Assembly: GCF_016862915.1 (NCBI RefSeq)
Contig: NZ_BONW01000013.1
Span: 310,001 to 374,000, forward strand
Source of the DNA: Plantactinospora endophytica
Lineage (GTDB): Bacteria > Actinomycetota > Actinomycetes > Mycobacteriales > Micromonosporaceae
DNA: 64,000 nt
Reading direction: 5' to 3'
Shown: positions 46,661-64,000 of the stretch, piece after piece
Numbering within the stretch: position 1 is the stretch's first letter
Layout: the number at the start of each line of letters is the position of its first letter
Position numbers and translations under genes: made by a program
The notes under the pieces: generated by a model
The model's database searches: none
What the model was told of the DNA's origin: nothing
The model's input: only the letters and a program-made list of their open reading frames with translations

Positions 46661-47181
46661 CGTGCCGCTCCGTTCAGAGCCGGGGCGTCGTCGACCGCCC
46701 AGGCAGCCATGACCTCGCGCAGCCGGGACAGCCCGCGTGAGGCGGTGGATTTGATGGTGCCGATCGAGCAGCCGAGCGTCTCGGCGGCCTCCGCCTCGCT
46801 CAACTGCTCCCAGTAGCGCAACACCAGCACCGTCCGCTGGCGTGGGGGCAGCGTGGCCAGTGCCTGGACGAGTGCCTGCCGCAGGTGCAGTGCGTCCGTA
46901 CCGTCGGACCGACCCGGTGGCTCGACACTGACCAGGACCTCCGGCCGGCGCCGGCGGCTGCGCCACTGGTCGACCGCGAGGTGGTACATCGTCCGACGCA
47001 GGTATCCCTCCTTGTCGCCGTGTATCCGGTTCCAGCGCCGCATCAGCCGTTCCAGCCCCGCCTGCAGCAGGTCCTCGGCGGCGGCGCGGCTGCCGGTCAG
47101 CAGCACCGCCGTGGCGAGTAAGGCGTCGCCCCGTTCCACCACGAGGGTGTCCAACCCGTCGAAGTTCTGTCTCCAACGCAC
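46657..47181 (-). CDS. SigE-family ECF RNA polymerase sigma factor
   Basis: 174 residues from GTG 47181, which has AAGGAG about eight bases upstream. Region 2 reads LDTLVVERGDALLATAVLLTG then EDLLQAGLERLMRRWNRI, and region 4 LPPRQRTVLVLRYWEQLSEAEAAETLGCSIGTIKS. It is a paralogue of the factor at 38712 with the same downstream layout (overlapping membrane partner), so two such modules lie within 10 kb. Confidence 0.86.
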   Translation of the reverse strand: MRWRQNFDGLDTLVVERGDALLATAVLLTGSRAAAEDLLQAGLERLMRRWNRIHGDKEGYLRRTMYHLAVDQWRSRRRRPEVLVSVEPPGRSDGTDALHLRQALVQALATLPPRQRTVLVLRYWEQLSEAEAAETLGCSIGTIKSTASRGLSRLREVMAAWAVDDAPALNGAAR

Positions 47182-47299
47182 GGGCTCTCCTTCCGTCGCC
47201 ACCAAGGACGACGGTTCCTCGGGAAAGGTTGACCGGACGTGCGGAGAACCCGGGTGCAGGACGGTGCCGGGCTCAGCGGTCTGCCACCGCCGCGTCCGC

Positions 47300-48451
47300 T
47301 CAGGAGGTCCGGCCGCGCGCCCGCGCGCCGTGCGGTGGCTCGTCGGCGGGTACCAGCGCGGCCGGGGCCGGGCTGTAGAGCCGGTCGCGGATGTCACCGT
47401 CCCAGCCGAGGAAGCCGCCGTCGGTGCCGGCGGCACTGCGCAGCCACTCCGGTACGCAGAACGCCCGCACGTCGAGGTCGGCGGTGATCGTACTGCCGTA
47501 GAGGGCGTCGACGTAGTGGGTGATCCAGGCGACGGCCGGCCCCAGGTCGTTGTCCCGGACGAGGGTGCGTACCTGCTCCGCGTGATCCCGGCCCCAACGC
47601 TGCCAGTACCGCCAGACGTCGGCGAACTGGGTGATCCGGAGTCCGCCCTCGGCGATGGCGCGTTCGAACCAGCAGTCGCGGAACAGGTGCAGTACGACGA
47701 AGAGGAACGCGTACTCGTGGCCGAGCGTCGGCAGCAGGTGCCGGGCGTGCGGCCCGACCTGGGTCTCCCGGGCGCTTCCCATCGCCTCCGCCATCGGCAG
47801 TTGCCAGCCGCTGCCGTGCCAGGTGAGACTCAGCGCCACGTCGACCTTGTAGACGGGGACACCGGATTCCGGGTCGATGCGGTGGAAGTGCGGGAGATGA
47901 TCCGGGTAGAGCCGGTACATGAGGACGGTTTGCCGGGGTAGCGGGACCAGCCGACCGAGATCCGGGTCGTACGTCTGCTCCGGCACGTAGCCGAGGCTCT
48001 GCAACGCCGCCCGGGCCGCCGGGATGTCGTCCGGATGGAGCATCAGGTCGAGGTCACCGAAGCTGCGGACACCTCGACCGTCGTAGAGGGTGTGTTGCAG
48101 CGCGATCCCCTTGTTGAACACCACCGGTACGCCGTGTTCCGCGAACCGGCCGGCGATCTCGACGCTCTCGTCCCGCAGTTTCTCGACCTTGTACCGGTTC
48201 CAGGCCAGCGAGCCGGCCAGCAGGTCGCGCATTCCGATCGGCAGGGTCCGGGTCAGCCCGGCACTGCGGTAGAACTCGGCCACCGCCGGTGTCATCTTGT
48301 GCCTGGCCGCGAGCGCGATCAGCAGGTCCGGGTCCGTCAACCCCTTCGCCAGGTCGACCGCCTGCTCGAACCAGGAATCCGAGAAGTCGGTGACCGCGAC
48401 CGATTCGAGGAGCTGCCAGACTCTCCGCTGCTCCTCGTTGACTTCCTGCAT
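47300..48451 (-). CDS. Nucleotidyltransferase-like protein of the NRPS cluster
   Basis: 383 residues resembling the uncharacterised nucleotidyltransferase family NTP_transf_5, often found in peptide natural-product clusters. The core is NKGIALQHTLYDGRGVRSFGDLDLMLHPDD, where the Asp pair in GDLDL (about residue 132) is the expected metal site and the Lys before it a family mark. AAGGAG precedes the ATG at 48451. It lies 102 bp after the dioxygenase gene in the same direction. It might modify the peptide or a sugar/phosphate on it, or confer self-protection by nucleotidylation; neither is shown. Confidence 0.72.
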   Translation of the reverse strand: MQEVNEEQRRVWQLLESVAVTDFSDSWFEQAVDLAKGLTDPDLLIALAARHKMTPAVAEFYRSAGLTRTLPIGMRDLLAGSLAWNRYKVEKLRDESVEIAGRFAEHGVPVVFNKGIALQHTLYDGRGVRSFGDLDLMLHPDDIPAARAALQSLGYVPEQTYDPDLGRLVPLPRQTVLMYRLYPDHLPHFHRIDPESGVPVYKVDVALSLTWHGSGWQLPMAEAMGSARETQVGPHARHLLPTLGHEYAFLFVVLHLFRDCWFERAIAEGGLRITQFADVWRYWQRWGRDHAEQVRTLVRDNDLGPAVAWITHYVDALYGSTITADLDVRAFCVPEWLRSAAGTDGGFLGWDGDIRDRLYSPAPAALVPADEPPHGARARGRTS

Positions 48452-48553
48452 GCTGCATCTCCTTCCGATAAGGGGTCGCGGTCCCCGTGGCAGCGGAGAC
48501 CGGCCGCGCGAGCTGATGGCCGCGCAGGCCGGGCCGTTCGTGGCCCACCACGG

Positions 48554-49381
48554 TCACAGCGGGTTCAGTTCGAGGCGCCGGTCGTCGTCCGGGACGATCG
48601 GCGCGGCGTTGCGGTCCACCAGGAACTCGGGCCGGGTCGGCGCCGGTGGGACGTTGCGCACCGAGTTGTACGTGATCAGCAGCAGCGCCCGCCGGTCCGC
48701 CGACCCGTTGTTGGACGAGGAGTGCACGATGCTCGGATGGAAGGCGTGCAGAGACCCGGCCGGGCCGGTGATCAGGCGGGTGCCCAGCTCGCCCGCCAAC
48801 TCTCCGGCGCGCTGTGGGGTGACGGTGTAGGCGAGGTCCGCCGAGACGTGCCGCTGCCAGTCGGAGCGCCCCGGATCGTTCCCGTCGGTGTGCGGGTCCT
48901 GTAGACCCAGCCGGTGCGAGCCGGGTATGACGGTCAGCGGTCCGTTCCCCTCGTGCACGGCGTCGAGCGAGATCGCGATGTTCACCGCGACCGGCCGGGG
49001 CATGCCGTCCTCCCGGTGCCAGAAGGAGAAGTCCTGGTGCCAGGGCCAGGCAGCGCCCTCGTGGGCCTGCTTGAGATTGACCTTGAACTGGTAGACGTAC
49101 ACCGGTCCGCCGACGAACGCCTCGGCAAGTTCCACCAGCAGCGGATGGCGGGTCAGCGCCGCGCACACCTCGTCGAAGCGGTGACAGCCGTGGACGGCGC
49201 GGACGACCCTTCCGCCCTTCTCCCAGACCACCTCCGGCCTGACCTCCCGGGCGATTGCTCCGACCCGATCCCGCAGCAGCTCGACCGCGGACCCGCCGAG
49301 CCGGTACGGGAGTGTGCACCAGCCGTCCCGCTCGTAGGCGGTGGTCAGCTCGCACAGGGCGGTGTCGGGGACGGGGCTCAT
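48554..49381 (-). CDS. PhyH-family Fe(II)/2-oxoglutarate dioxygenase
   Basis: 275 residues. The iron ligands are visible as H-x-D in PWHQDFSFWH (about residue 114) and the distal His in HPSIVHSSSNNG (about 219); the 2-oxoglutarate Arg is likely in SADRRALLL. The stretch VYVYQFKVNLKQAH with REDGMPRPVAVN and GPLTVIPGSH is close to EctD-like and free-amino-acid hydroxylases. GAGGAGG precedes the ATG, 13 bp after the NRPS stop. Being next to an A domain with a proline-like code, it may hydroxylate that residue or the finished peptide. Confidence 0.85.
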   Translation of the reverse strand: MSPVPDTALCELTTAYERDGWCTLPYRLGGSAVELLRDRVGAIAREVRPEVVWEKGGRVVRAVHGCHRFDEVCAALTRHPLLVELAEAFVGGPVYVYQFKVNLKQAHEGAAWPWHQDFSFWHREDGMPRPVAVNIAISLDAVHEGNGPLTVIPGSHRLGLQDPHTDGNDPGRSDWQRHVSADLAYTVTPQRAGELAGELGTRLITGPAGSLHAFHPSIVHSSSNNGSADRRALLLITYNSVRNVPPAPTRPEFLVDRNAAPIVPDDDRRLELNPL

Positions 49382-49394
49382 TCGTGGGTCCTCC

Positions 49395-52300
49395 TCAGGT
49401 GGTCTCCGGTGGGCGCATCCGGCGCAGGGCGGGCCGCGCCGGAACGGTCGGGTTCAGGCAGGCCGCGATCCCGCGTACCGTGGCGTCGTCGAACACGTCG
49501 CGGATGTCCAGTTCGCAGTGGAGTTCGGCCCGGATCCGGCTGATCAGGCGGGTGACGAGCAGCGAGTGGCCGCCGAGTCCGAAGAAGTCGTCGGCCGGGC
49601 CGACCTGTGGCACGCCCAGGACATCGGCGAAGATCCGGCACAGGGCGGCTTCCCGCGCGTTCGCCGGGCCGGGGCCGTCGGTCCTGGTCGCGTACACCGG
49701 AGGGGGCAGGGCCGCCCGGTCGACCTTGCCGTTCGGGGTGAGCGGTATCTGCGGCAGCACCACCACGGCCGCCGGCACCATGTAGTCGGGAAGCCGCCGC
49801 GCCGCGTACTCCCGCAGCCCGGCCGGGTCCGGTGCGTCGCCCCCGCCACCGACCACGTAGGCCACCAGGCGTCTGTCCCCCGGACGGTCCTCCCGGACCA
49901 GTGCGACGGCCCGGACGACTTCCGGCCGCTCCGCGAGCACCGCCTCCACCTCGCCCGGTTCGACCCGGAAGCCGCGCAGCTTCACCTGGAAGTCGGTACG
50001 GCCGAGGAAGTGCAGCGAGCCGTCGGGACGCCGGCGCACCAGGTCGCCGGTCCGGTACATCCGGGTTCCCGGCGCTCCGAACGGGTCGGCGACGAAACGT
50101 TCGGCGGTGAGTCCGGGGCGGTGCAGATAGCCCCGGGCGAGCTGGTCGCCGGCCAGGTACAGCTCACCGGCGACGCCGGGCGGTACCGGCGTCAGGGCCG
50201 GGTCCAGGACGTACGCCCTGGTGTTCCAGATCGGTGGGCCGATGGGCGGGTTGTCCCCGCCGGTCAGGCACGCGTCCGGCACGAGGCAGCCGGTGACGAC
50301 GTGCGTCTCGGTGGGGCCGTAGTAGTTGTAGAGCCGCCGCCCACCGCCCGGTGCGAAGAACCGGCGCAGTACGGGGCCGAGCGTGAGCGCCTCGCCGGCC
50401 TGCGCGACGTGGGCCAGGTACGGCAGCTCCAGGCCGAGCCGGTGCGCGGCGTCGGCCAGCGTCTCGACGACCGGTGTCGGGGCGAAGAGTTCACTGACCC
50501 GCATCCGGTGCAGCCACCGGACGAACTGCTCGGAGTCCTTCCGGCACTCGTCCAGGGGTACGGCGAGGGTCCTGCCCGTCGTCAGGGCCGACAGGATCTC
50601 CTGCGCCGCGGCGTCGAAGCTCAGGTTCGCGAACTGGGCCGTCGTACTGCCGACCCCGCCGGCCATGGTCTCGGCGTGCCAGGCCAGCAGGTTGACCATC
50701 GCCCGGGAGGGCAGCACCACTCCCTTGGGCCGCCCGGTCGAGCCGGACGTGTAGAGCACGTAGACGGGGTGCTCCGGCCGCACCGGCCGGATGCGCTCGT
50801 GGTCGCCGACGTCGGTGTCCGGCAGGGCGTCCAGCAGCTTCTTCGTCTCGGCACTGTCGATCACGAGCCGGGGACTGTCCCCGGGGGTTCCGGCGGTCGT
50901 GCTCTCGGTGGTGAGCACGCAGACGGGCCGACTGTCCCGCAACATGTACGCGATCCGCTCGGCCGGATAGCCGAGATCCAGCGGAAGGTAGGCCGCCCCC
51001 GTCTTGATCACCGCGATCGTGGCGACGATCAGGTCGAGCGATCGCGGTGTCCGGATCGCCACCACCGTCTCGGGCCCCGCACCGAGGCCGACCAGCAGCC
51101 GTGCCATCCGATTCGAGAGCGCACCCAGCTCCGCATAGCTCAGGGACCGGTCCTCATGGCGTACGGCGACGACGTCCGGCGTACGTGCGGCCTGGCGGTC
51201 GAGCAACTCCGGCAGGCACCGCCGGTCCACCGCCCTCGCCGTGTCGTTGCAGCCTTCGAGCAGGTGGTGCCGTTCCGGCTCGGGAAGCATGTCGAGCTGG
51301 CTCATCGGCACGTCGGGGTCGCGCACGGCGGACTGCATGAGCCGCAGGAGGTACCCGCCGATGCGTTCCACCGTCGAGCGGTCGAAGAGGTCGGTCGCGT
51401 ACTCGATGGTGATGTCGAGACCGTCCGGCTTCCTGTTCGGCGCCAGGCGCTCGGTGTAACTGACGGAGAGGTCGAACTTGGCGCTCCGGTTGGCCGCCTC
51501 CTCCAACTCCACGCCCAGCTCACCCAGCTCGTACGAGGGCGGCGCGGCGCCCTGGGACACCAGCAGGACCTGGAACAGGGGGTGCCGGGCCAGCGAACGG
51601 GACGGACCGATCGCCTCGACCACCAGCTCGAACGGCACCTCACGGTGGGCGAGGGCGGCGAGGTCGACGTCCCGCACCCGGCTGAGCAGCGTACGGAAGC
51701 CGGGGTCGCCGGAGGTGTCGGTGCGCAGCACGAGTGTGTTGACGAAGAAGCCGACCAGGTCTTCGAGCGCCGCGTCGTCGCGTCCGGCGACCGGGCAGCC
51801 GATCGGCAGGTCGGTGCCCGCGCCCAGTCGGGTGAGCAGGGCGCCGAGCACCGCCTGGAAGGCCATGTAGACGCTTGCCCCGAGGCTCCTGGCCAGCCCG
51901 ACCAGCTCGCGGTGCAGCCCGCCGTCGGCCTCGATCGTGACGGTCGCCCCACGATAGGAGGCCCGGGCCGGGCGGGGCCGGTCGAACGGCAGTTCGAGTT
52001 CTTCGGGCGCGCCGCTGAGCACGGACTGCCAGTAGCGCAGCGGAGCGCCGGCCGGGCTGGCGGGTTCCTCCGGGCGGTCCAGCAGCCGCCGGTGCCAGAG
52101 CGCGTAGTCCGCGTACTGGAGCGGCAGCTCGGCGAGGACGGGCACGGCGCCGTTGTGGCGGGCGCCGTAGGCGGCGACGAGATCCCGGGTCAGCGGGGCG
52201 GTGGACCAGCCGTCGAAGGAGATGTGGTGGACCACGAGCAGCAGTTGGTGCTCCGTCGGACCGGTACGGAGCAGCCGGGCCCGGAGCGGGAGGTCCGTGC

Positions 52301-54437
52301 TCAGCGCGAAGCCCTCCGCGAAGAACGCCTCGGCGAGCTGCCCGGCCTCGGCGGTGCTCGCGCACGCCGTCACGGGCAGCGCGGGCCGGGCGTCGGCGGG
52401 CGGCACGATCTCCTGCCACGGTTCGCCGGACTCCTCGGGGTACCTGGTGCGCAGCGGCTCGTGCCGGGCGACGACGTCGGCCAGCGCCGCCTCCAGCGCC
52501 GGCAGGTCGAGCGGGCCGTGCAGCCACAGCCGCAACGGGGTGTTGTAGGTGGCCGTACGCCCCTCCAGCCGGTTGAGGAACCACAGCCGCCGCTGCGCCG
52601 AGGACAGCGGCAGTCGCGCGGGACGCTCGGCGGGTACCGGACCGGGGCGGGCGACGGCTGGGCGGCGCAACCGGCCGGACAGCTCGCGGGCGGTGGGCGC
52701 GTCGAAGAACTCGCGTACGTCCGGTGCACCGCCGAACTCGTCGCGGATCCGGCCGATCAGGCGGATCGCCAGCAGGGAGTCGCCGCCGAGTTCGAAGAAG
52801 TCGTCGGTGGCGCCCACCTGGGGCACGCCGAGCAGTTCGGCGAACACGCCGCACAGCCGCTCCTCGGCGGCGGAGCCGGGTGCGACGGTGCCGGCCCCCG
52901 CCGCAGGCCCGGGAGCGGGGAGCGCGGCGCGGTCCACCTTGCCGTTCGGGGTCTGCGGCAGGGTGTGCAGCAGCATCACCGTGTGCGGAACCATGTGACG
53001 TGGGAGCCGCTCGGCGAGCAGGGCGCGGATGCGTCCGGGGTCCGGCTCGGCGCCGGTGAGCGGTACCACGTAGGCGGCGAGCCGCTGCTGCCCCGGCCGC
53101 TCCTCGCGGAGCACGACGACCGCCCGGGCGATGCCGGGCAACTCCTCGACAGCCGTCTCTATCTCGCCCAGTTCCACCCGATGACCGCGGATCTTCACCT
53201 GGTGGTCGACCCGGCCCACGAACTCCAGGCAGCCGTCGGCCGCCTGCCGGACCCGGTCGCCGGTGCGGTACATCCGCGTTCCGGCCGGGCCGAACGGGTC
53301 CGCGACGAACCGGGCGGCCGTCATCCCCGGCTGGCGGAGATAACCCCGGGCCACCCCGGCCCCGGCGAGGTACAGCTCGCCCACGGCCCCGTCCGGGACC
53401 GGCCGCAGCCGCTCGTCGAGCACGTGGACCCGGGTCTGCCGGATCGGCGTACCGATCGGCGGAGCGCCGTCCCGCTTCCGCTGGTCGAGGCTGTACGCCG
53501 TGGACCAGATCGTCGTCTCCGTCGGCCCGTACGCGTTGGTCAGCACGGCGCCGGCCGCGCGCATCCGTTCGGCCAGCGAGGCCGACAACGCCTCGCCGCC
53601 CGCCACCGCCCGCACCCGCGACAGGTCCACCGCCGACGTGTCCAGCAGGACCTCCCAGAGGGACGGCGTGGCCTGCATGACCGTGATCCCGGCCTGCCGG
53701 ATCAGGGCGGCGAGGCGCGCCGGGTCACGCTGCTCCGCCTCGGCGGCGAGCACCACGGTCGCGCCGCCGGTCAACGGCAGGAACAACTCCAGACCCGCGA
53801 TGTCGAAGCCGAGCGTGGTGACGGCCAGCAGCCGGTCGGCCGGATCGAGAGCGAGCCGCTGGCGGAAGTCGGCCAGCAGGTTGGCCAGGGCCGCGTACGT
53901 GACGACGACGCCCTTGGGCCGCCCGGTGGATCCGGAGGTGTGCAGCACGTAGGCGGGGTGCTCGGGATGCCGTACGCCCCGCAGCTCGGCGGCCTCGATG
54001 TCGGTGTCCGGGAGGGCGGCCAGCGCGGCGGCGGTCTCGGGGCTGCCCAGCCGGAGGTGGGGGACCGTGAGCCAGTCCGGGGCAGGTGCCGGCTCCGCTG
54101 CGGTCAGCGCCAGCACCGGCCTCGTGTCGTCGAGGATCGCTCCGTTGCGCCGTACCGGATGGGCGGGGTCGAAGGGGACGTACCCGGCGCCGGCCTTGCC
54201 CACCGCCAGCAGGGCGACCAGGAGGTCGGCGGTCCGGGGCAGCAGCAGCCCGACCAGGGACTCGGGGCCGGCGCCCCGCCGGATCAGCAGTCTGGCCAGG
54301 CGGTTGGCCCGGGAGTTGAGTTCGCCGTAGCGCAGCGGGACCCCGGCGCACACCACGGCGACGTCCTGCGGCGCCCGTACCGCGTGTTCCTCGAACAGTG
54401 CGACCGGCGTCGGTAGCGCGGTGTTCCGCTGCGTCAC
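49395..54437 (-). CDS. Non-ribosomal peptide synthetase, A-T-C-A-T
   Basis: 1680 residues from GTG 54437, which overlaps the MbtH stop. A1 (10-510) has [12 protein letters not shown] and FDIAGLE; my reading of its specificity residues is DILQVGAIWK, close to the glycine code. T1 has GGDSL near 551. The C domain has HHISFDG near 738. A2 has [11 protein letters not shown] near 1227 and FDAAAQE near 1276; I read DAQFAAYVVK, nearest to the proline code DVQLIAHVVK. T2 has GGHSL near 1621, and there is no thioesterase. Starting with an A domain makes it a loading or first-position enzyme, handing a dipeptide to the C-A-T-TE protein encoded upstream. Confidence 0.9.
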
Positions 54438-54667
54438 TCGGCGGCCCCCGGCCCGTCCTGTTGCCCCGTCGCGGCGACCAGGCTGCGGGGCCGCATGTCC
54501 TGCCACACCGCTTCGACGTGCGCGAGGCACTCGGCTCGCCGCTCGTCGCGCAGTACGGCCGACCAGCCCGCCGGCTCGGCCAGCGCGGCCGGCCACAGAG
54601 AGTACTGACCCTCGTCGTTCACCAGCACGTGGAACCGCGCCTCGTCGTCGTCGAACGGGTTGCTCAC
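54434..54667 (-). CDS. MbtH-like protein
   Basis: 77 residues with the full family signature: [27 protein letters not shown], then [17 protein letters not shown]. MbtH-like proteins bind adenylation domains and are often needed for their solubility and activity. GTG 54667 has GAGGAG upstream and lies 10 bp after one NRPS gene; the stop overlaps the start of the other. It likely serves one or more of the three A domains here. Confidence 0.93.
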
Positions 54668-54677
54668 GGCACTCTCC

Positions 54678-57600
54678 TCACGTCTCCTCGGAATCGTGGC
54701 CGGGCGGTGGCGTGCGGCCGGGGAGGATCCTGGCGAGCAACCGCCCGGTCTCCGCCGCCCCGGTGCTGAACAGGTCGTGGTGCCCGACGTCGAGGTTCAG
54801 CACCGTCAGCCGGCCGGCGACGAACCGCTGCCATGTCGACGGGTTCCCCGAGCGGGCGGCGACCAGGGTCATGTCGCCGCGCAGGAGTTCCGGCACGAAG
54901 GCGTACTGGAGACGGAGGTTGTTCATCCCGATCCTCAGTGCCGCCCGGATCCCGTGGTCGTTGGCATCGGCCAGCGGAGGGAAGCGCCGGCGCACCTCGT
55001 CCAGGACCCGACCGTCGAGTTCGGCCGGGTTCCGGGCGTTGCCGGCAGCGTCGTCGGGCGGGACGCCGAGCACGTTGTGCAGGGCCTCCCGGAGCGGCCG
55101 GCTCGCGGTTTCCGCCCCGGGCGGCTCCGGGTAGCCGTCGAGGACGACCAGGGCCGCCACCCGGTCCCCCTCCTGCTCCAACCGGGTGGCCATCCGGTGC
55201 GCCACCAGGCCGCCGAAGGACCAGCCGGCCAGGTGGTACGGGCCGGCTGGCTGGATCTTCCGTATCTGGGCCAGATAGTCCGCGGCCATCTCGTCGACGG
55301 TCCGGGGCGGTGCCGGCAGCGGGTCACCCGCCACCGCCTCGGCGAAGCCTCGGGCCTGTAGCGCGTGGACCGGCCGGCCGGTACCCAGAAACTCCAGGAT
55401 CCGGAAGTAGCACCAGCTCAGGCCGGTGCCGGGGTGGACGAGGAAGAGGGGTTCGCCCGGCCCGTCGGAGCGCAGTTCGAGTACCGGCCCGAAGGCTTTC
55501 TCCGCCGCCTCGCTCCGGGACAACTGCCGGGCCAGCGCGGCCGGGGTGGGATGGCGGAAGATGCTCTGCACGGGCAGGTTCACCGCGAGTTCGGCACGGA
55601 TGCGCCGGACCAGCCGGACGGCCAGCATCGAGTGTCCGCCCAACCGGAAGAAGTCGTCCTCCACCCCCACCTCGGGTACGCCCAACAGTTCCGCGTACAG
55701 CCGCACCAGGGCCCGTTCCACCCGGGTACCCGGCGCTCGGCCCGGCCGTACGTCGACCGGGGGCGGCGGCAGAGCCCGGCGGTCGAGCTTCCCGTTCGGG
55801 CTGAGCGGGAGCCGGTCCAGCACCACGACGGTGGCCGGCACCAGATGGCCGGGAAGCACGTCGGCAAGGCTCGCGAGCAGGGCTTGGGGGTGCACCGATC
55901 CGCGCGCCGACGGTCCGGCGGCCGGCGTGACGTACCCGACCAGCCGCTGGTCGCCCGGGGTGTCCTCGCGGACCACCACGCAGGCGCCACCGACCGACTC
56001 CTCGGCCAGCAGCGCGGCTTCCACCTCGCCGGGTTCCACCCGCTGGCCACGCAGCTTGACCTGGTCGTCGGCTCGGCCGAGGAAGACGAGCACGCCGTCC
56101 GGCGTCCAGCGGACCCGGTCACCGGTGCGGTACATCCGGCTTCCCGGCGGGCCGTAGGGGTCCGCCACGAACCGGGTCGACGTCAGCGCCGTCCGGGCCA
56201 GGTAGCCGTCGGCGAGCTGCACCCCGCTGAGGTACAACTCGCCGGCCAGCCCGACCGGGCACGGGGCCAGCCGGTCGTCCAGTACCCGCACCTGGGTGTT
56301 CCAGACCGGGCGGCCGATCGGCACCGGGCCCTGCTCGCCCGGCACGCAGTCGTGCCGGGTGACGTCGACGGCGGCCTCGGTCGGCCCGTACAGGTTCGTC
56401 AGGGCGACGCCCGGCAGGACCTGGTGGAAGGTGAGCACCGATTCGCGGGGAAGCGCCTCGCCGCTACAGAAGACGCGGCGCAGCCCGGCGCAGCGGGCGG
56501 CGGCCGGCTCGGTGAGGAACAGGTCCAACATCGACGGTACGAAGTGGACAATTGTGACGTGTCTGTCCACGATGGTACCTGCCAGGGCGGCCGGGTCACG
56601 ATGCTCGTCCGGCCCGGCCACCACCAGCGTCGCCCCCACCCGGAGCGGCCAGAAAAACTCCCAGACGGAGACGTCGAACCCGCTGGGAGTCTTCTGTAGG
56701 ACGCGGTCGTCGGCGGCGAGGGGACAGGCCGCCTGCATCCAGCGGAGCCGGTTGTCTATCGCGGCGTGCGAGACGACCACGCCCTTGGGGCGCCCGGTGG
56801 AACCGGAGGTGTAGATGACGTACGCCGGATGCCCCGGCCGGAGCGCCGGCCCGGTGCCGGAGGCTTCACCGGTGCCGGGCGCCGGGTCCGTCGTCAGCTC
56901 GTCCGGGGTGACCACGCGGACCTCGCCGCCGTCCAGCCGCGTGCACAGCTCCCGGTCGCCCAGTACGCAGACCGGCCGGGCGTCGTGCAGCATCATCCGC
57001 AGCCGCTCGTCCGGATCGCCGGGGGCCAGCGGCAGATAGGCGGCGCCCGCCTTCACCACCGCGAGCAGCGAGACGACCAGCGCGGCGGAGCGCGGAAGTC
57101 CCACGGCGACGACGGTCCCCGGACCCGCCCCCAACTCGCGCAGCCCGCCGGCCAGCCGATCCGACTGCTGGTCCAGCTCCGCGTACGTCAGCGAACCGTG
57201 CGCCGAGACGAGGGCGGTGGCCTGCGGGGTGCGTGCGGCCTGGGCACGGAACGCCGCCGGCAGCGTCGTCACGGGTAGCTGCCGGGCCGTGTCGTTCCAG
57301 GACGCCAGCACCTGATCCCGCTCGTCCGGAGTGAGCAGGGAGTGCGCGCTGATCGGCAGGCCGGGTGCCCGGACGGCCGCGTCGAGCAGCCGGGACAGCC
57401 GGTCGGCCAGCAACCCGGCCGTCTCGGCGCGGAAGATGTCGGCGGCGTACTCCAGGACCCCGGAGATCCCCCTCGGGGTGCCGTCGGCGTCGACGTGCTC
57501 GGTCAGTTGCAGGTTCAGGTCGGCCTTCGCCGCCGGCACGTCCACCGCCGGCCGCTCGACGGTGACCGCGCCGAAGTCGAGCTCCTGCCGCACTCTGGTG

Positions 57601-58664
57601 TCGAAGGCGAGCATGACCTGGAAGAACGGGTGCCGGTCCGCCGAACGCGGCGGGTTGAGCTCCTCCACCAACAGGTCGAACGGCAGGTCCTGATGCGCGT
57701 ACGCCGGCAGGGCCACACCCCTGACCCGGTGCAGCAGCTCCGTGAAGGACGGATCACCGGACAGGTCGGTACGCAGCACCAGCGTGTTGACGAAGAAGCC
57801 CACGAGATCGTCGAGTGCCTCGTCGGTACGCCCGGCCGTCACCGTGCCGAGCGGGATGTCGGTGCCCGCCCCCATCCTGCACAACAGCGCGCACAGTGCC
57901 GCCTGCACCACCATGAACACCGTGCAGTTCTGCTGCCGGGCGAGGTGCAGCAGTTCCCGGTGCCGGTCGGCGTCCCAGTCGACCGCGACGCCGGCCCCGG
58001 GGTGACCCGCGACGGCGGAGCGGGGACGGTCGACGGGCAGCGGCAGGGCGGCCGGGGCGCCGGCCAGGGTGTCGCGCCAGTAGCCGAGCTGCCGGCCGGC
58101 GACGCTCTCCGGGTCGTGCCGGTCGCCCAGCAGTTCCCGCTGCCAGAGCGTGTAGTCGGCGTACTGCACCGGCAGTTCCGGCCAGTCGGGCGGGCCGGCG
58201 CCGCCACTGCGGGAGCGGTACGCGGTCGCCAGGTCGCGCAGCAGCACCTCGATCGACCAGCCGTCGGCGACGATGTGGTGCAGCGTCAGCAGCAGCACGG
58301 CGTCGGCCGCCGCGCTCACGAAGAGGTCGGCCCGCAGCGGCGGCTCGTCCGCGAGTACGAACGGTGCCGACGCGGCGGCCTGGATGTGCGCGTCCAACTC
58401 CGTCGGCGCGACGGCGGTCACGGTCAGCTCCGGGCCCTCGGCCGGCGCGGCCAGTACCCGCTGCCAGGGCGTGCCGTCGGTGTCGGGGAAGACGGTGCGC
58501 AGCGACTCGTGCCGGGCGATCACGTCCCCGAGGGCGGCGCGTAGCGCGGCACGGTCCAGCGGTCCCCGCAGCCGCAGCACGACCGGCAGGTGGTAGGTCG
58601 GGTCGGCGCCGTAGAGCCGGTCGAGGAACCACAGCCGCTGCTGGGCGTGCGACAGCGGGATCAC
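54678..58664 (-). CDS. Non-ribosomal peptide synthetase, C-A-T-TE, serine-activating
   Basis: 1328 residues from GTG 58664, overlapping the ABC transporter stop. C domain: LSHAQQRLWFLDRL and HHIVADG (about 131). A domain: [11 protein letters not shown] (about 617) and FDVSVWEFFWPL (about 661); the specificity residues read DVWHFSLVDK, which as I recall is the serine code of EntF. T domain: GGHSM (about 1009). Thioesterase: GWSFGG with nucleophile Ser (about 1146) and His in GHHDLF (about 1294). It is the termination module, adding Ser and releasing the peptide by hydrolysis or cyclisation. The layout equals EntF, but no catechol gene is seen. Confidence 0.92.
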   Translation of the reverse strand: MIPLSHAQQRLWFLDRLYGADPTYHLPVVLRLRGPLDRAALRAALGDVIARHESLRTVFPDTDGTPWQRVLAAPAEGPELTVTAVAPTELDAHIQAAASAPFVLADEPPLRADLFVSAAADAVLLLTLHHIVADGWSIEVLLRDLATAYRSRSGGAGPPDWPELPVQYADYTLWQRELLGDRHDPESVAGRQLGYWRDTLAGAPAALPLPVDRPRSAVAGHPGAGVAVDWDADRHRELLHLARQQNCTVFMVVQAALCALLCRMGAGTDIPLGTVTAGRTDEALDDLVGFFVNTLVLRTDLSGDPSFTELLHRVRGVALPAYAHQDLPFDLLVEELNPPRSADRHPFFQVMLAFDTRVRQELDFGAVTVERPAVDVPAAKADLNLQLTEHVDADGTPRGISGVLEYAADIFRAETAGLLADRLSRLLDAAVRAPGLPISAHSLLTPDERDQVLASWNDTARQLPVTTLPAAFRAQAARTPQATALVSAHGSLTYAELDQQSDRLAGGLRELGAGPGTVVAVGLPRSAALVVSLLAVVKAGAAYLPLAPGDPDERLRMMLHDARPVCVLGDRELCTRLDGGEVRVVTPDELTTDPAPGTGEASGTGPALRPGHPAYVIYTSGSTGRPKGVVVSHAAIDNRLRWMQAACPLAADDRVLQKTPSGFDVSVWEFFWPLRVGATLVVAGPDEHRDPAALAGTIVDRHVTIVHFVPSMLDLFLTEPAAARCAGLRRVFCSGEALPRESVLTFHQVLPGVALTNLYGPTEAAVDVTRHDCVPGEQGPVPIGRPVWNTQVRVLDDRLAPCPVGLAGELYLSGVQLADGYLARTALTSTRFVADPYGPPGSRMYRTGDRVRWTPDGVLVFLGRADDQVKLRGQRVEPGEVEAALLAEESVGGACVVVREDTPGDQRLVGYVTPAAGPSARGSVHPQALLASLADVLPGHLVPATVVVLDRLPLSPNGKLDRRALPPPPVDVRPGRAPGTRVERALVRLYAELLGVPEVGVEDDFFRLGGHSMLAVRLVRRIRAELAVNLPVQSIFRHPTPAALARQLSRSEAAEKAFGPVLELRSDGPGEPLFLVHPGTGLSWCYFRILEFLGTGRPVHALQARGFAEAVAGDPLPAPPRTVDEMAADYLAQIRKIQPAGPYHLAGWSFGGLVAHRMATRLEQEGDRVAALVVLDGYPEPPGAETASRPLREALHNVLGVPPDDAAGNARNPAELDGRVLDEVRRRFPPLADANDHGIRAALRIGMNNLRLQYAFVPELLRGDMTLVAARSGNPSTWQRFVAGRLTVLNLDVGHHDLFSTGAAETGRLLARILPGRTPPPGHDSEET

Positions 58665-60442
58665 GGCGCGTACGCCCGGCTCTGCGCGGTGTACAGCTCG
58701 GCGTACTTCCCCTGGTTGCGGCTGAGTTCGTCGTGGGTGCCCAGCTCGGCCACCCGCCCCTGGTCGAGCACCACGATGAGGTCCGCCGCCCGGACCGTGG
58801 AGAACCGGTGCGAGACGAGCAGGGTGATGCCGCCGTCGCTGGTGTCGGCCGGGCGGGCGGGGCCGGTGAACCGCTCGTAGAGTTCGTGCTCCACCTGCGG
58901 ATCCAGCGCGGCGGTCGGCTCGTCCAGCACCGCCAGCAGCGGCTTGCGGCGCATCAGTGCCCGGCTCAGCGCCAGCCGCTGCCACTGGCCGTGCGAGAGT
59001 TCGGCACCCCCGAACGTCCGGCCGAGCATCGAGTCGAGTCCCTGCGGCAGCCGCTCCGTCACCTGCCGCGCCTGTGCCGCGTCCACCGCCACGCGTACCG
59101 CCTCGGTGTCGTCGACCTGCGACACGCTGCCGACCCCGACGGCGTGCCGGGCCCGGCCCTCCAGCTTGAAGAAGTCCTGGAAGGCGGCGGTCGTCCGGGC
59201 CCGCCAGTCGGCCAGCCTGAGCTGTCGCAGCGGTACGCCGTCGACCAGGATCTCGCCCTGCGCCGGTTCGTACATTCCGGTGAGCAGCTTGACCAGGGTG
59301 GTCTTTCCCGCGCCGTTGATGCCGACCACCGCCACCGTGGCGCCGGCCGGCAGGTGCAGGTCCACCCCGCGCAGCACGGGCTGGTCGGTGCCGGGGTAGC
59401 CGAAGGTCACCCCGCGCAGCCGGATGCCGTCGGTCAGCCGGGCCGGCACCGGTCTCGTACCGCCGTGCGCCTGCCGCTCGGTGTGCGTCTCCAGCCACCG
59501 GAAGTGGCGGACGGTGTGCCGCCCCTCGGCGAGTTGGGCGAGCCCGTTCACCGTGCCGGTGAGCTGCGTCCGCAGGTACGCCGAGAGGCTGGCCACCATC
59601 AGCAGGTCGCCCGGGGTTCCCCGGCCCTGGCTCACCTCGTGCGCGACGAAGGCGAGGGCGGCCAGATAACCGGCGGCGAAGCAGGTCCAGCCGGCGACCT
59701 GCCAGAGCGACGCGGCGCGCAGTGCGCGTACGAGTTGCCGGGTCGCGCGCTCCCAGTATTCGGCCGCGCGGCCGTCCACGTACCGGTCGCTGCCGCTGAT
59801 CCGAAGCTCCTTGGCCGCCTCCGCCGAGGTGGCCAGCCGGTGTAGCCGCAGCTCCCGGCGCTCGGCCCCGGCGCTGGAGTCCCGGGCACGGGCGAGCAGC
59901 GCCGACGCCCGGCGGGAGAAGTACAGCGGCGGAGCGGCCAGCAGCACCAGCGCGGCGAGCGCCGGGTGCACGTCGGCCAGCAGCCAGGCGCTCAGTCCCA
60001 GACTCAGCAGCGACGAGGCGGCACTGACCGCCCCCCAGCAGGCGCCCGCGAGGGTCTCGGTGCTCGACCGGATCTGGCTCAGCCGGTCCAGGAACTCCGT
60101 GCGTTCCAGATGTTCCAGCGTCGGGGCATCGGCGGTCATCGTGTGCAGCCGCTGGCAGAGTTCGAGGTCGACCCGCTCGGTCAGGTCGACCTGTAGGTTG
60201 TTCTGCACCCGCTGGGCCGAGGCGATCATGGCGTAGGCGAGGGCGCCGATCGAGGCGGCCAGCAGGATCCCGTGCCCTCCGCCGAGCCCGGCGGAGTCGG
60301 ACAGGTTGCGCACGGCCAGGCCGGTGGCGGCCACCGCCATGGCGTTCAGGAACGCCAGCACCAGGACGGTGGTGGTGGCCTTCGCGTCCGCCCGGTGGGC
60401 GATGCGCAGCATGGCGAGTACCACGCTGGCCCCGGCCCTCAC
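58661..60442 (-). CDS. ABC exporter half-transporter (TMD-NBD), second of a pair
   Basis: 593 residues. About six membrane segments fill residues 10-300, followed by an ATPase with Walker A GINGAGKTT (about 375), signature LSHGQWQRLALSRAL (the usual second Gly of LSGGQ replaced by His), Walker B LLAVLDEPTAALD and the H-loop SHRFSTV. GTG 60442 overlaps the stop of the first half-transporter and has GGAG eight bases upstream. The pair probably forms a heterodimer exporting the peptide made by the adjacent NRPS. Confidence 0.88.
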   Translation of the reverse strand: MRAGASVVLAMLRIAHRADAKATTTVLVLAFLNAMAVAATGLAVRNLSDSAGLGGGHGILLAASIGALAYAMIASAQRVQNNLQVDLTERVDLELCQRLHTMTADAPTLEHLERTEFLDRLSQIRSSTETLAGACWGAVSAASSLLSLGLSAWLLADVHPALAALVLLAAPPLYFSRRASALLARARDSSAGAERRELRLHRLATSAEAAKELRISGSDRYVDGRAAEYWERATRQLVRALRAASLWQVAGWTCFAAGYLAALAFVAHEVSQGRGTPGDLLMVASLSAYLRTQLTGTVNGLAQLAEGRHTVRHFRWLETHTERQAHGGTRPVPARLTDGIRLRGVTFGYPGTDQPVLRGVDLHLPAGATVAVVGINGAGKTTLVKLLTGMYEPAQGEILVDGVPLRQLRLADWRARTTAAFQDFFKLEGRARHAVGVGSVSQVDDTEAVRVAVDAAQARQVTERLPQGLDSMLGRTFGGAELSHGQWQRLALSRALMRRKPLLAVLDEPTAALDPQVEHELYERFTGPARPADTSDGGITLLVSHRFSTVRAADLIVVLDQGRVAELGTHDELSRNQGKYAELYTAQSRAYAP

Positions 60443-62316
60443 GCCGATGCTCCTTCCGGGCGGGCCGGCGCCGTGGCCCTGGCCGCACCGACTGCCGTCG
60501 ACCCGTCGCCGAACCGGTCCGCCTGGAGCCGGTACAGCCTCGCGTAGTGGCCGTCCAGGTCCATCAGCTCGCCGTGGTCGCCCGCTTCGGTGACCCGGCC
60601 ACCGGTCAGCAGCACGATCCGGTCGGCGTTGCGTACGGTCGACAGCCGGTGCGAGATCACCACCACGCTCACGTCCGGGACGGCGGCGATCACCTGCTGG
60701 TGGAAGCCCATCTCCGCCCGGACGTCCAGATGGGCGGTGGGTTCGTCGAGGATGAGCAGTCGGCGACCGTGGGCCACCGCGAACATCGCCCGGGCGATGG
60801 CGATCTTCTGCCACTGCCCGCCGGAGACGTCGACACCACCCCGGTGTTCCCGGCTGAGCAGGGTGTCCAGCCCGTGCGGAAGCCGCTCGACGAGGTCACC
60901 GGCACCCGCCGCCTCGACCGCGGCCATGATGCTCCCGTCGGTCGCCTCGGCCTCCGGCGCACCCAGGGCGATGTTCTCCCGGACGGTGAGCGGATAGTGC
61001 ACGAAGTCCTGGAAGACCGCGGAGATGCGGCGTCGCCAGGACGTGACGTCGAGCTGGGCCAGGTCGGTGCCGTCGACCCGTACCCGCCCCTCGGTCGGCT
61101 GTTGCAGCCCGGCGAGCACCTTCAGCATGGTGGTCTTCCCGGCGCCGTTCCGGCCGACGACGGCCAGCACCTCGCCGGGCCGGATCTCCAGGTCCAGGCC
61201 GTCGAGCACCCTGCGGTCGGTGCCCGGGTAGCAGAACCCGACCCCCTCGAAGCTGATGTGCGGGGCCGACTCGGGGGCCGGCCGCTCCCCGGGCTCCTGC
61301 TCTGCGGTCGCCCGCCCTGCGGTGGCCAGTTCGTGTGAGCGCAGCCGCTCGAACGCCTGCAACGCGCCGGTGGCGTACTCGATGTCGAACGCCTCGTGTC
61401 CCATCACCCCGGCAGCGAAGACCCCCCAGGCGGCGAGGACCATCGTCACCAGGCCACCGGCCGTCAGCTCGCCGCCCGCCAGGGCCGTACCCGGGACGTA
61501 CAGCGCCGCGAAGCCCGCTCCTCCGGCGAGGGCGAACGTGCTCCACTGCCGGCGCAGGATGCCCCGCCGCTCGCGCCAGATCTCGCCGAGCCACTCCTCG
61601 GCCTGTGCCCGGTGCCGGGTGTTCAGCCAGCCGCCGAAACCGAACAGCCGTACCTCCTTGGCGGCGGCGGAGCCGGTGAGCGTGTCCGACCAGTACGCCA
61701 TCCGGCTGCGGTCGCCGGCCCGCGCGTCCCAGATGGTGCCGAGCCGTACCCACTGCCGCCGGATGACGGCCCGCATCAGGAGGGTGAGGGTCAGCAGTAC
61801 CACCCCCAGCCAGGGCTCGTACCAGGCCAGCACCCCGGCACAGCCGACCGCCCCGGCCAGCCGCCCCAGCAGGACGAGTTGACCGACGGCGCCGGTCCCC
61901 GGGGTACGGGTACGCCAGCCGCCGAGCTCCGACACCCGGGCCACGTCCGTGCCGTACTCGCCGTCGTCGAGGTGGGAGATGCCCCTCGGTTCGGACACCC
62001 GGCGACGCAGGTCCGAGCGGAGTCGGCCGTCGATCCTGCGGGCGGCGAGTACGTCCAGCGGCTCGCGGCAGAGTTCCGTGCACTGCCCCGTCAGCACCAC
62101 GACCGCGACCAGGGCCAGGTGGGGCAGCATCTCGCCGACCGACCCCGCCTGTAGGGCGCGGGTGAGCAGCCACCCGATGGCCAGGGCGGTGGCGGCCGGG
62201 GCCAGGGCGGAGACCAGGTGTGCCAGCAGCAGCCCGGTCAGTGTCCCGCGCCCCGTACCGCTGAGCAGCCTCAGCAACTCGAGCCGTTGCCGCCCCACCG
62301 TTCGCCATCGGGTCAT
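60439..62316 (-). CDS. ABC exporter half-transporter (TMD-NBD), first of a pair
   Basis: 625 residues. A membrane domain covers about residues 20-310 and the ATPase follows: GRNGAGKTT (about 387), signature VSGGQWQKIAIARAM, RLLILDEPTAHLD and SHRLSTV, with a Q-loop FQDFVHYPLTVREN. The nucleotide-binding sites look complete. It starts six bases after the stop of the condensation-domain gene. Its placement before the NRPS genes in one operon argues for a role in exporting, or protecting against, the product. Confidence 0.88.
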   Translation of the reverse strand: MTRWRTVGRQRLELLRLLSGTGRGTLTGLLLAHLVSALAPAATALAIGWLLTRALQAGSVGEMLPHLALVAVVVLTGQCTELCREPLDVLAARRIDGRLRSDLRRRVSEPRGISHLDDGEYGTDVARVSELGGWRTRTPGTGAVGQLVLLGRLAGAVGCAGVLAWYEPWLGVVLLTLTLLMRAVIRRQWVRLGTIWDARAGDRSRMAYWSDTLTGSAAAKEVRLFGFGGWLNTRHRAQAEEWLGEIWRERRGILRRQWSTFALAGGAGFAALYVPGTALAGGELTAGGLVTMVLAAWGVFAAGVMGHEAFDIEYATGALQAFERLRSHELATAGRATAEQEPGERPAPESAPHISFEGVGFCYPGTDRRVLDGLDLEIRPGEVLAVVGRNGAGKTTMLKVLAGLQQPTEGRVRVDGTDLAQLDVTSWRRRISAVFQDFVHYPLTVRENIALGAPEAEATDGSIMAAVEAAGAGDLVERLPHGLDTLLSREHRGGVDVSGGQWQKIAIARAMFAVAHGRRLLILDEPTAHLDVRAEMGFHQQVIAAVPDVSVVVISHRLSTVRNADRIVLLTGGRVTEAGDHGELMDLDGHYARLYRLQADRFGDGSTAVGAARATAPARPEGASA

Positions 62317-62322
62317 CCGCCG

Positions 62323-63654
62323 TCATCCCTCCAGAGCCAGTGCGCAGCGGTCGGCCACCTGGCGCACGGTGGTGTCCGTTCCGTCGGCCAGCCGGTACAA
62401 CTGCTCGTGGAACCATCCGGCGAGCGCACGCAGCCGGGGCGCGGGCAACAGTTCGGGGTCGACGCGGAGCACGACCGGCATCTCGGCGCCCGGCCGGATC
62501 TTGATGTCGAAGCGGGGTCCGATCTGGCGGCTCGGCCGGCTCTGCACGATCCGGGGCGGCGGGTGACCGGCCAGCTCGGCGGCGGGCCGGGCCACGATGT
62601 CGGTCGGCATGAAGTTGAAGAAGTGGTCGAAGCCGAGATCGATCTCCCGCTCCCGACGCACCAGGTCGGTGACCGCGTCGAAGTCATAGGAGCCCATCCG
62701 GTACGCCCGCAGCGCCGATGCCTGCAGCCGGGCGGCGAGGTCGGCGTACTCCGCCCGGGGCGGGCCGAGGTCGACCGGGAGCGGGACGTACTGGTTCATG
62801 GAGCTGACGATGGACTTCCAGCGCGGGTGGGAGCGGTTGCCGGACTGCAACGTCAGCACCGGCTGCCGGGTGCAGGTGACGGCGGCGCACGCCACCGCGC
62901 TCAGCGAGAGCAGCAGGCTCTGCGGCGACGCCCCGGTACGCGCCGAGAGGAGTTCCAGTGCCGCCCGCGCGCCTGCCGAGTACAGGACGGCTTCGATCCG
63001 GCCCGGAACGTCCCCGTCGGACCGGGGGACCGGGAACTGCTTCTCCGGCAGGGTGCGCAGGAGTTCCTGCCAGTGCCGCAGCACCGTCGTCCGGTGGAGG
63101 TGCCGGGCCTGCGACCACTGCTCGGCGGCGAGGTCGGCCGGGGCGGGCGGAGTCTCGGCCAGCCATCGCCCACCCGTCGGGCTCGCCGACCCCAGCAGCG
63201 CCGACAGTTCGGCCGCCAGCCGGATCAGCCCGTACCCGTCGGAGACGATGTGGTCCACGACGATCACGACGGTACGCGGCCGTCCGTCCCGGGTGACCAC
63301 CGCGAACCGGCAGCCGAACTCGCTCTCCCGGGCGATCCGCTCCTCGGCCAGCCGGGCCGCGACCGTGGTCGCGTCGTCGTGCTCGACCACCTCGACGGCG
63401 ACCGTCTCCGGCGCGGGCCGGACGTGCTGACGCGGCCCCGCCGGAGAGTCGACGAACAGCGTACGCAGCGACTCGTGCCGGCGGCACAGCGTGCCGACCG
63501 CCCGGACGGCCTGGTCCGTGGTGGTACCGGCCGGCACCGGAACGCACTCCCGCAGGTACGTCTCCGACCAGCGCTCCAGCGGATAGCTCTCCATCACCCG
63601 CCACACGGACAGTTGACCGAAGGTCAGCGGAGCCGGCGTACGGTCGCCGGTCAT
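62323..63654 (-). CDS. Free-standing NRPS condensation domain
   Basis: 443 residues, the length of one condensation domain. The active-site motif reads VDHIVSDG near residue 133 rather than HH-x3-DG; the second, catalytic His is kept and the first is Asp. The N-terminal APLTFGQLSVWRVM corresponds to core C1, and GSYDFDAVTDLV with DLGFDHFFNF to later cores. The ATG at 63654 overlaps the stop of the carrier-protein gene, so the two are made together and may act as a pair. It could acylate the first residue, join a fragment in trans or mediate release; this cannot be decided here. Confidence 0.85.
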   Translation of the reverse strand: MTGDRTPAPLTFGQLSVWRVMESYPLERWSETYLRECVPVPAGTTTDQAVRAVGTLCRRHESLRTLFVDSPAGPRQHVRPAPETVAVEVVEHDDATTVAARLAEERIARESEFGCRFAVVTRDGRPRTVVIVVDHIVSDGYGLIRLAAELSALLGSASPTGGRWLAETPPAPADLAAEQWSQARHLHRTTVLRHWQELLRTLPEKQFPVPRSDGDVPGRIEAVLYSAGARAALELLSARTGASPQSLLLSLSAVACAAVTCTRQPVLTLQSGNRSHPRWKSIVSSMNQYVPLPVDLGPPRAEYADLAARLQASALRAYRMGSYDFDAVTDLVRREREIDLGFDHFFNFMPTDIVARPAAELAGHPPPRIVQSRPSRQIGPRFDIKIRPGAEMPVVLRVDPELLPAPRLRALAGWFHEQLYRLADGTDTTVRQVADRCALALEG

Positions 63655-63914
63655 GTCTCCGCCCCGTCGCGCAGCCGTCCGACCACGGCCCACAGCGCGG
63701 CGGGGGTGGCGAAGGTCTCGGCGTGCAGATCCTCGTCCGGGAACTGGACGGCGAACGCCTCCTCCACCTCGACGAGCAGCCCCACGGTGGCCAGGGAGTC
63801 CAGGCCCAGCGCGGGTAGGGACGACTCGGCGGTGAGCGGCGCGCCCTCCCCGAGCAGCGGCAGGTGCTGCCGGACCGCCTTCTCGAAGTCATCCGGCCAG
63901 TTGGCACTGGTCAT
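63651..63914 (-). CDS. Free-standing acyl/peptidyl carrier protein
   Basis: 87 residues. The phosphopantetheine site is ALGLDSLATVGLLVEVEEAF with Ser at residue 40. The acidic helix after it (VEVEEAFAVQFPDEDL) is acyl-carrier-like. ATG 63914 has AGGAGA six bases upstream. It would carry the unit used by the overlapping condensation-domain protein. The enzyme that loads it is not in the window and may lie beyond the right edge. The frame is open upstream of this ATG to the window edge. Confidence 0.88.
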   Translation of the reverse strand: MTSANWPDDFEKAVRQHLPLLGEGAPLTAESSLPALGLDSLATVGLLVEVEEAFAVQFPDEDLHAETFATPAALWAVVGRLRDGAET

Positions 63915-64000
63915 CGCGTTTCTCCTGTTCGGGCCGTGGGCGGCGAGGTCACGCCAGGTGTCCGGAGCGGTCCAGAGGTCACGCCAGTTGTACGGATCGG
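63915..64000 (-). other. Open frame upstream of the carrier protein, possibly the end of another gene
   Basis: Two readings are possible. In frame with the carrier protein, the DNA encodes DPYNWRDLWTAPDTWRDLAA with good third-position G/C and no stop. In another frame a coding end would stop at TGA overlapping the carrier ATG (ATGA). The strong AGGAGA supports initiation at 63914 either way. Confidence 0.35.
63945..64000. repeat. 30-bp imperfect direct repeat at the right edge
   Basis: GAGGTCACGCCAG followed by (G/T)TGT(C/A)CGGA(G/T)CGG occurs at 63945-63970 and 63975-64000. It may continue past the window. Read on the minus strand, it encodes the WRDL motif twice. Confidence 0.8.

Follow-up and report, generated by a model that had tools for sequence, protein, structure and literature searches.

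Which peptide is made by the nonribosomal peptide synthetase (NRPS) operon at the right end of this stretch of Plantactinospora endophytica DNA, and what is the extra unit that it appears to incorporate? The window, meaning the whole stretch of 64,000 nucleotides that was analyzed, covers positions 310001 to 374000 of contig C13 (710,791 bases) in a genome of 9.68 Mb. An initial annotation had described nine leftward genes and predicted a peptide of Gly, Pro-like, and Ser residues plus one further unit. We found that the operon continues beyond the window and that its probable product is a small, exported nonribosomal peptide composed of glycine, hydroxyproline (Hyp), dehydro-beta-alanine (Dba), and serine.

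The nine-gene set was confirmed on the minus strand at 47300 to 63914. Gene starts were picked by context, and Pfam, NCBIfam, and PDB sequence comparisons were used to assign families. Pfam domains and translations agree with the gene content given earlier: two NRPSs with adenylation (A), carrier (T), condensation (C), and thioesterase (TE) domains in the orders A-T-C-A-T and C-A-T-TE, an MbtH-like protein, an ATP-binding cassette (ABC) exporter pair, a free C domain, a free carrier protein, a PhyH oxygenase, and a nucleotidyltransferase. The tight packing claimed for these genes held for the strand and for seven of the eight junctions, each being a 4-base overlap or a gap of 6 to 13 bases; it did not hold between PhyH and NTP_transf_5, the sole wide junction, which measures 102 bases. 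When the contig was read further, the operon was seen to cross the right window edge, with genes for an acyl-CoA dehydrogenase (ACAD)-like protein, a decarboxylase, and a ligase upstream on the same strand. These three genes overlap mutually by 1 to 4 bases, and the ACAD gene is 64 bases from the carrier gene. The whole operon is 12 genes in one direction, from 68044 down to 47300, with window numbering continued past 64000 for contig genes to the right of the edge:

66512-68044, minus strand, right of the window: VinN-like AMP ligase (PDB sequence comparison)
65157-66515, minus strand, right of the window: BtrK-like pyridoxal phosphate (PLP) decarboxylase (PDB sequence comparison)
63979-65157, minus strand, 3' end (63979-64000) inside the window: ACAD-like gene (family and PDB comparison)
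63651-63914, minus strand: free-standing carrier protein with an LGLDSLA motif (PF00550, E 3.3e-8; weak acyl carrier protein family matches)
62323-63654, minus strand: free-standing C domain (PF00668, E 6.3e-17; motif DHIVSDG)
60439-62316, minus strand: ABC1 exporter half, 625 aa (ABC_tran, E 6.8e-31; residues 155-599 MsbA-like)
58661-60442, minus strand: ABC2 exporter half, 593 aa (ABC_tran, E 2.3e-26; ABC_membrane below its cut-off only)
54678-58664, minus strand, GTG start at 58664: NRPS_A, C-A-T-TE, terminating module with a serine-type A3 (Pfam; code DVWHFSLVDK)
54434-54667, minus strand: MbtH-like protein (PF03621, E 2e-26)
49395-54437, minus strand: NRPS_B, A-T-C-A-T, with a glycine-type A1 and a proline/hydroxyproline-type A2 (Pfam domains, A codes)
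48554-49381, minus strand: PhyH Fe/2-oxoglutarate oxygenase, a predicted L-proline 3- or 4-hydroxylase (PF05721; 7dzz, E 1.1e-49)
47300-48451, minus strand: NTP_transf_5 nucleotidyltransferase, the last operon gene, a predicted tailoring enzyme (PF14907, E 3.1e-34)

Conserved motifs were read by eye: the carrier-domain Ser is kept, both NRPS C domains contain HHxxxDG, and the TE contains GWSFGG. The free C domain retains the second His and the DG of its motif, the free carrier protein keeps the phosphopantetheine Ser (DSL motif; PF00550), and the genes for these two proteins overlap by 4 bases. All 12 genes are co-linear in a genome of another genus of the same family (G427), at 72 to 85% identity; the MbtH match there covers 31 residues only. 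No homologue of the free C domain above 34% identity was found in 397 genomes of the order, a sample drawn without G427.

The probable extra unit and its genes

The gene set given in the initial annotation, which predicted an extra unit, was incomplete, the ligase, decarboxylase, and ACAD genes lying across or beyond the window edge. Because the same four kinds of gene as in the bolagladin set are present in the operon, this unit is very likely beta-alanine that is then converted to Dba. The Dba of bolagladin is proposed to arise from Asp through BolO, BolC, BolN, and the ACAD-like BolQ; deletion of bolN abolished the product, and deletion of bolQ led to beta-Ala in place of Dba (PMC7756342). 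On a free carrier protein, VinN loads 3-methyl-aspartate, which VinO then decarboxylates (PMC11284099).

The best PDB match of the operon ligase was VinN (3wvn, E 3.5e-126). Manual counting with a 16-residue offset showed the VinN residues Asp230 and Arg331 to be conserved and Ser299 to be replaced by Thr. This D-T-R pattern recurred in 19 of 19 related ligases examined, a survey confined to matches of at least 200 bits; all 19 stretches supplied had one, and genome G474, where no ligase was found, was not among them. BolO is described as retaining Ser299 (PMC7756342). The decarboxylase is of the fold III PLP type, and its best PDB matches were the BtrK entries 7ru7 and 2j66 (E 3e-45). A scan of viral contigs for this decarboxylase gave 28 stretches that fit a pattern and no relatives among them.

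Relatives of the ACAD were collected by an alignment scan of genomes of 84,980 species, from which the best 80 of 519 were taken. Within these 80, 22 loci had an ACAD identity of at least 44%, and 12 of them had a ligase and a decarboxylase near the ACAD; none of the 58 others did. Ten of the 12 cassette loci also contain another NRPS-like match, and the set mostly includes a carrier protein. Of the 44 genomes of the family in which an ACAD match occurred, 11 also had their neighborhoods read, namely, the genome of the window (G000), G427, G397, G469, G474, G531, G576, G549, G636, G428, and G618. G549 and L126 are one locus, and the neighborhood profile scan (cassette, NTP_transf_5) did not take in G700 and G399. 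A tree was built from 93 ACADs, among them those of these 11 family genomes, each row having at least 300 aligned query residues. The 22 rows representing loci with a decarboxylase all fell within one 35-row clade (support 100/100), apart from the 58 other ACADs; G474 was counted as decarboxylase bearing but yielded no VinN-type ligase. Within the clade, the decarboxylase label needs seven changes. The operon ACAD belongs to the same clade, and none above 62% identity to it was seen outside its own genome and G427 among the family genomes and the best 80 of 519 relatives.

One member of the 35-row clade, G700, comes from the genus to which Burkholderia puraquae belongs; this locus is not equated here with the bol cluster. 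Two loci from the genus of the window differ in composition. One (G397:C132, L048) contains two clade ACADs with genes resembling ketoacyl synthase III (KAS III), a ligase, a decarboxylase, and a carrier and is possibly a bolagladin-like lipopeptide cluster. The other (G399:C1, L045) has a carrier, ligase, decarboxylase, and C-domain gene beside NRPS genes and has no ACAD; from its gene content it reads as a beta-alanine version of the set.

Residue prediction and proposed order of assembly

The A-domain pockets were read by eye on an alignment from G000, G427, and G636, with the GrsA pocket positions as reference and the final Lys assumed. The codes obtained were DILQVGAIWK for A1, DAQFAAYVVK for A2, and DVWHFSLVDK for A3, which we take, by known code tables, to specify glycine, a proline-like residue, and serine, the same types as called in the initial annotation. 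Reading by script gave the same A3 code and also the same A2 code, apart from position 278, where it had a gap, and the end, where it was shifted; it missed A1 of G000, G427, and G438. A1 and the deviating A2 positions were read by eye for G000, G427, and G636 only. The A2 pocket residues, as read by eye, are identical in G000, G427, and G636, and the seven readable positions are identical in G438, too. Comparison of A2 with PDB sequences returned nothing informative on the substrate.

We read the Pro-like A2 as Hyp because the PhyH fold is closest to that of the proline hydroxylase H11. The PhyH model (pLDDT 91, built from 28 sequences) had structures of this trans-3/4-proline hydroxylase as its closest solved relatives, the best match giving E 3.8e-28, a TM score of 0.86, and 38% identity and the H11 structures overall giving 34 to 38% identity with TM up to 0.87. 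No paper on the sequence match 7dzz was found in the open literature. Residues H115, D117, H220, and R231 are invariant in the 28 sequences, and the HxD...H iron site is present. H11, GriE, and EctD have the PhyH fold and iron ligands in common with the operon enzyme, whose substrate and regiochemistry are predicted only. PhyH adjoins NRPS_B in four of the four genomes where an NRPS_B relative of at least 55% identity was seen (G000, G427, G636, and G438), a count that leans toward adjacency, G438 having been found via its PhyH and with no genome-wide NRPS_B search. The two genes seem to travel as a pair, which fits Hyp as the A2 residue; the H11-like fold and this adjacency strengthen the earlier Pro-like call. 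In G438:C5 (L247, L248, and L250), PhyH (75%) and NRPS_B (74%) lie in a different, larger NRPS cluster, which suggests a movable Gly-Hyp pair.

The proposed assembly runs as follows. Judging from homology and pocket residues, the VinN-like ligase would load aspartate via its beta-carboxylate onto the free carrier protein, and the BtrK/VinO-like decarboxylase, by homology, would convert the beta-aspartyl-carrier to beta-alanyl-carrier. PhyH would hydroxylate proline, and NRPS_B, according to its codes, would load Gly and (hydroxy)Pro and join them on its second carrier domain. The free C domain would transfer the Gly-Hyp chain to the amine of the beta-alanyl-carrier, and the ACAD, by analogy to the proposal for BolQ, would oxidize the N-acyl-beta-alanyl-carrier to N-acyl-Dba-carrier. 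The C domain of NRPS_A would then join the chain to Ser, and the TE would release a linear or cyclized product. More speculatively, NTP_transf_5 may tailor it, perhaps at the terminal Ser (compare PsmN in pseudomycoidin, below), and ABC1/ABC2 would export it. For the linear form of Gly-Hyp-Dba-Ser, we computed C13H20N4O7 with [M+H]+ at 345.1405.

We infer the chain order from the domain layout. NRPS_B has neither a starter C domain nor a TE, NRPS_A opens with C and closes with TE, and with Dba in mid-chain each operon part is used once. This order predicts a C domain behind NRPS_B, and the NRPS_B relative of G438 (2169 aa) indeed has one fused to it immediately after its final carrier domain. 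With the free C domain passing Gly-Hyp to the beta-alanyl-carrier, the ACAD would also receive the N-acyl substrate proposed for BolQ. An alternative order places Dba or beta-alanine at the N terminus: the free C domain would couple the (dehydro)-beta-alanyl unit on its carrier to Gly, and the product would be Dba-Gly-Hyp-Ser bearing an N-cap that was not seen. NRPS_B does start with A and has no C domain of its own in front, and the N-acyl-Dba unit of bolagladin is described as the starter (PMC7756342). However, the free amine of Dba is an unstable enamine by established chemistry, none of the 12 operon genes matches an acyltransferase, KAS III, or fatty acid synthase family for capping, and the fused C domain of G438 suits the mid-chain order better. 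We regard the N-terminal order as rather unlikely.

Besides this possible N-terminal position of Dba, several observations weigh against Gly-Hyp-Dba-Ser. The A2 code was not found in the open literature, and the leucine hydroxylase GriE resembles PhyH almost as closely as H11 does (TM up to 0.86 and 31 to 33% identity; 5nci_A, 0.86 and 33%). With Thr for VinN Ser299, 3-methyl-Asp or Glu may replace Asp as the ligase substrate. The PDB matches of the ACAD are weak, with E 4.1e-14 at best and DszC among them, and inspection of the alignment by eye located no canonical catalytic Glu. The enzyme may therefore be a flavin oxygenase of this fold instead of a desaturase, and the unit would then stay beta-alanine or be N- or alpha-hydroxylated. 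We consider such a lack of desaturation unlikely, given a gene set of the bolagladin kind, in which bolQ deletion swaps Dba for beta-Ala, and the grouping of all ACADs of decarboxylase-bearing loci in one clade. The likeness to BolQ is itself one of kind of gene set, the BolQ sequence being absent from the comparison, and the ACAD tree carried a long-branch warning. Finally, G636 has the NRPS pair at 56 to 59% identity with an ACAD and a carrier and without this type of ligase or decarboxylase in 78.8 kb; such an NRPS can therefore work with another unit.

In place of the ligase and decarboxylase, G636:C1 (L100, L101, and L119) contains an ADK-like kinase, an aminotransferase-like gene, and a pair of NTP_transf_5 genes, which may provide the carrier-bound unit in another way.

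The nucleotidyltransferase and known systems

NTP_transf_5 had no PDB sequence relative at E 0.1, and no paper on it was found in the open literature. A profile of eight sequences detected it near the ACAD (up to 10 kb on each side) in four of six named loci of the operon's ACAD subclade (support 95/96), one of the four, L127, having supplied the profile, and in none of the 16 remaining named loci whose ACAD identity is at least 44%. When stretches from further genomes were added (mostly 30 to 40 kb, thus longer), it was present in 12 of 15 subclade loci, of which 7 had supplied the profile. PsmN, a nucleotidyltransferase-like enzyme, is presumably related to PF14907. It adds hexoses to the phosphorylated C-terminal Ser in pseudomycoidin (PMC9266682). 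The two cases are alike in an annotated nucleotidyltransferase tailoring a C-terminal Ser, which in the operon is predicted, and differ in that pseudomycoidin is a lasso peptide and not an NRPS product. By this analogy, our guess is that NTP_transf_5 acts at the terminal Ser.

The closest described gene set is that of bolagladin (bol) in Burkholderia gladioli, where a free VinN-type ligase, a free carrier, a BtrK-type decarboxylase, and an ACAD-like enzyme also feed an NRPS. The bol modules are given as Ser, Val/Ile, homoserine, and Ser (PMC7756342), compared with Gly, Pro-like, and Ser here. By Pfam, the 12 operon genes include no fatty acid or KAS III genes; the operon has a free C domain, adds PhyH, NTP_transf_5, and the exporter pair, and is actinobacterial. 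In the vicenistatin and fluvirucin pathways (VinN, VinL, and VinO; FlvN), a ligase and a decarboxylase likewise act on a free carrier protein, but there the unit receives its cap in a second aminoacylation and serves as a polyketide starter (PMC11284099). In the open literature consulted, the Dba peptides are the bolagladins and the enamidonins/olenamidonins/autucedines. The Streptomyces enamidonins/olenamidonins, which were compared by product and not by gene cluster, differ in containing L-Phe, two diaminopropionate residues, Gly, and a fatty acyl chain (PMC11204786). A bolagladin or enamidonin cluster was rejected for the operon, there being no fatty-acyl genes and other A domains. A comparison with solanimycin was dropped, as its authors argue for dehydro-alpha-alanine.

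Like the initial annotation, which knew of none, we found no described product with this gene set; our search covered the open literature, with MIBiG and antiSMASH outside its scope. That the cluster has already been characterized and is recorded elsewhere is very unlikely. Subscription literature was largely outside the scope as well, but the gene set and the predicted units differ from those of the bolagladins and enamidonins/olenamidonins as described, and no ACAD above 60% identity occurred among the named loci of the best 80 of 519 relatives. The bolagladin authors knew of no precedent for providing an NRPS with beta-aminoacyl starter units of this kind (PMC7756342). The same kind of gene set occurs in at least 12 named loci of the best 80 of 519, ten of them with another NRPS-like match. 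In this operon, the set appears to supply a mid-chain unit via a free C domain, rather than an acylated starter as in bolagladin. The testable prediction is a small enamide peptide with a dedicated proline hydroxylase and exporter, beside phosphonate genes.

Neighboring phosphonate genes

The gene for a phosphoenolpyruvate (PEP) mutase, PepM, stands head-to-head with the ligase gene at a distance of 2.1 kb, and phosphonate genes span about 23 kb (70103-93500; L010 and L051). They include the following, in window numbering:

70103-70990, divergent from the operon: PepM (EDKQYPKRNS; 5unc, E 1.6e-71; TIGR02320, 290 bits versus a cut-off of 320)
77488-78633, divergent: PsrA-like iron alcohol dehydrogenase, Fe-ADH (NCBIfam, 180 versus a cut-off of 424 bits)
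78630-79985, divergent: phosphonopyruvate decarboxylase Ppd (TIGR03297, 358 bits versus a cut-off of 312.5)
84198-86444, divergent: diiron oxidase-like protein
86437-88275, divergent: carbamoyltransferase
88460-89182, divergent: TauD-type dioxygenase

We take EDK(X)5NS to be the PEP mutase motif. Other genes of the set encode an ADK-like kinase, a flavin reductase, a luciferase-like monooxygenase, a methyltransferase, a glycosyltransferase, an asparagine-synthase-like protein (AsnS), and aldehyde (ALDH) and 2-hydroxyacid dehydrogenases. The protein labeled HO2 had no PDB sequence relative at E 0.01. ADK-type kinases were left out as an operon part, the own copy being common to the phosphonate set of G428.

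In G427, PepM (77% identity) is again head-to-head with the operon, 2.1 to 2.3 kb away, and the methyltransferase, Fe-ADH, Ppd, SGNH, diiron-like, and carbamoyltransferase genes match at 68 to 82%. Between the outer flanks of the two regions no orthologous genes were seen, the only matches being paralogue-like, at 31 to 40%. The operon and the phosphonate set are thus common to G000 and G427 without orthologous flanks, which argues for one inherited unit. It is possible, though on balance not the likelier case, that the two form one hybrid phosphonopeptide cluster in which the phosphonate genes supply a C-P unit joined to the peptide. Two of the two genomes found with the 12-gene operon have the head-to-head PepM orthologue and further phosphonate genes, the PepM motif and the 5unc match are those of a PEP mutase, and Ppd is above its NCBIfam cut-off.

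On the other side, PepM and Fe-ADH score below their cut-offs, and no gene was identified that would link the peptide and C-P moieties. In G427, the TauD (46%) and glycosyltransferase (29%) matches are weak, and orthologues of ADK, the luciferase-like protein (at most 24%), TolB, the helix-turn-helix (HTH) protein, AsnS, ALDH, and the 2-hydroxyacid dehydrogenase were not found in the region. PepM matches at E 1e-45 occur in 27 of 354 family genomes; those of at least 75% identity are confined to three (G000, G428, and G427), and in two of the three PepM lies beside the operon. The third, G428, has 16 genes of the phosphonate set at 65 to 85% (PepM 81%) and no NRPS operon in 59.7 kb; its sole ACAD match (51%) is on another contig, in a separate cassette cluster. 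Conversely, G636, with its NRPS pair, has no PepM at E 1e-45. These comparisons draw on neighborhoods from the 11 of 44 family genomes named above. The more specific combination, one pathway to a Gly-Hyp-Dba-Ser phosphonopeptide with a C-P unit and Dba set mid-chain by the free C domain between the two NRPS proteins, is doubtful.

In G618:C2 (L116 to L118), PepM, Ppd, and Fe-ADH at 40 to 47% are separated by about 13 kb from a clade ACAD, with no decarboxylase in 59.7 kb. To the left of the operon are genes for an extracytoplasmic function (ECF) sigma factor (46657-47436), a PALP PLP-dependent enzyme (44481-45539), and a SLAC1 transporter (43252-44229); the ECF sigma factor and the PALP enzyme gave no match in the 70 kb examined in G427. 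Between the operon and PepM, an open reading frame without a Pfam match (68862-69614) has a translation that resembles an insertion sequence (IS) transposase remnant.

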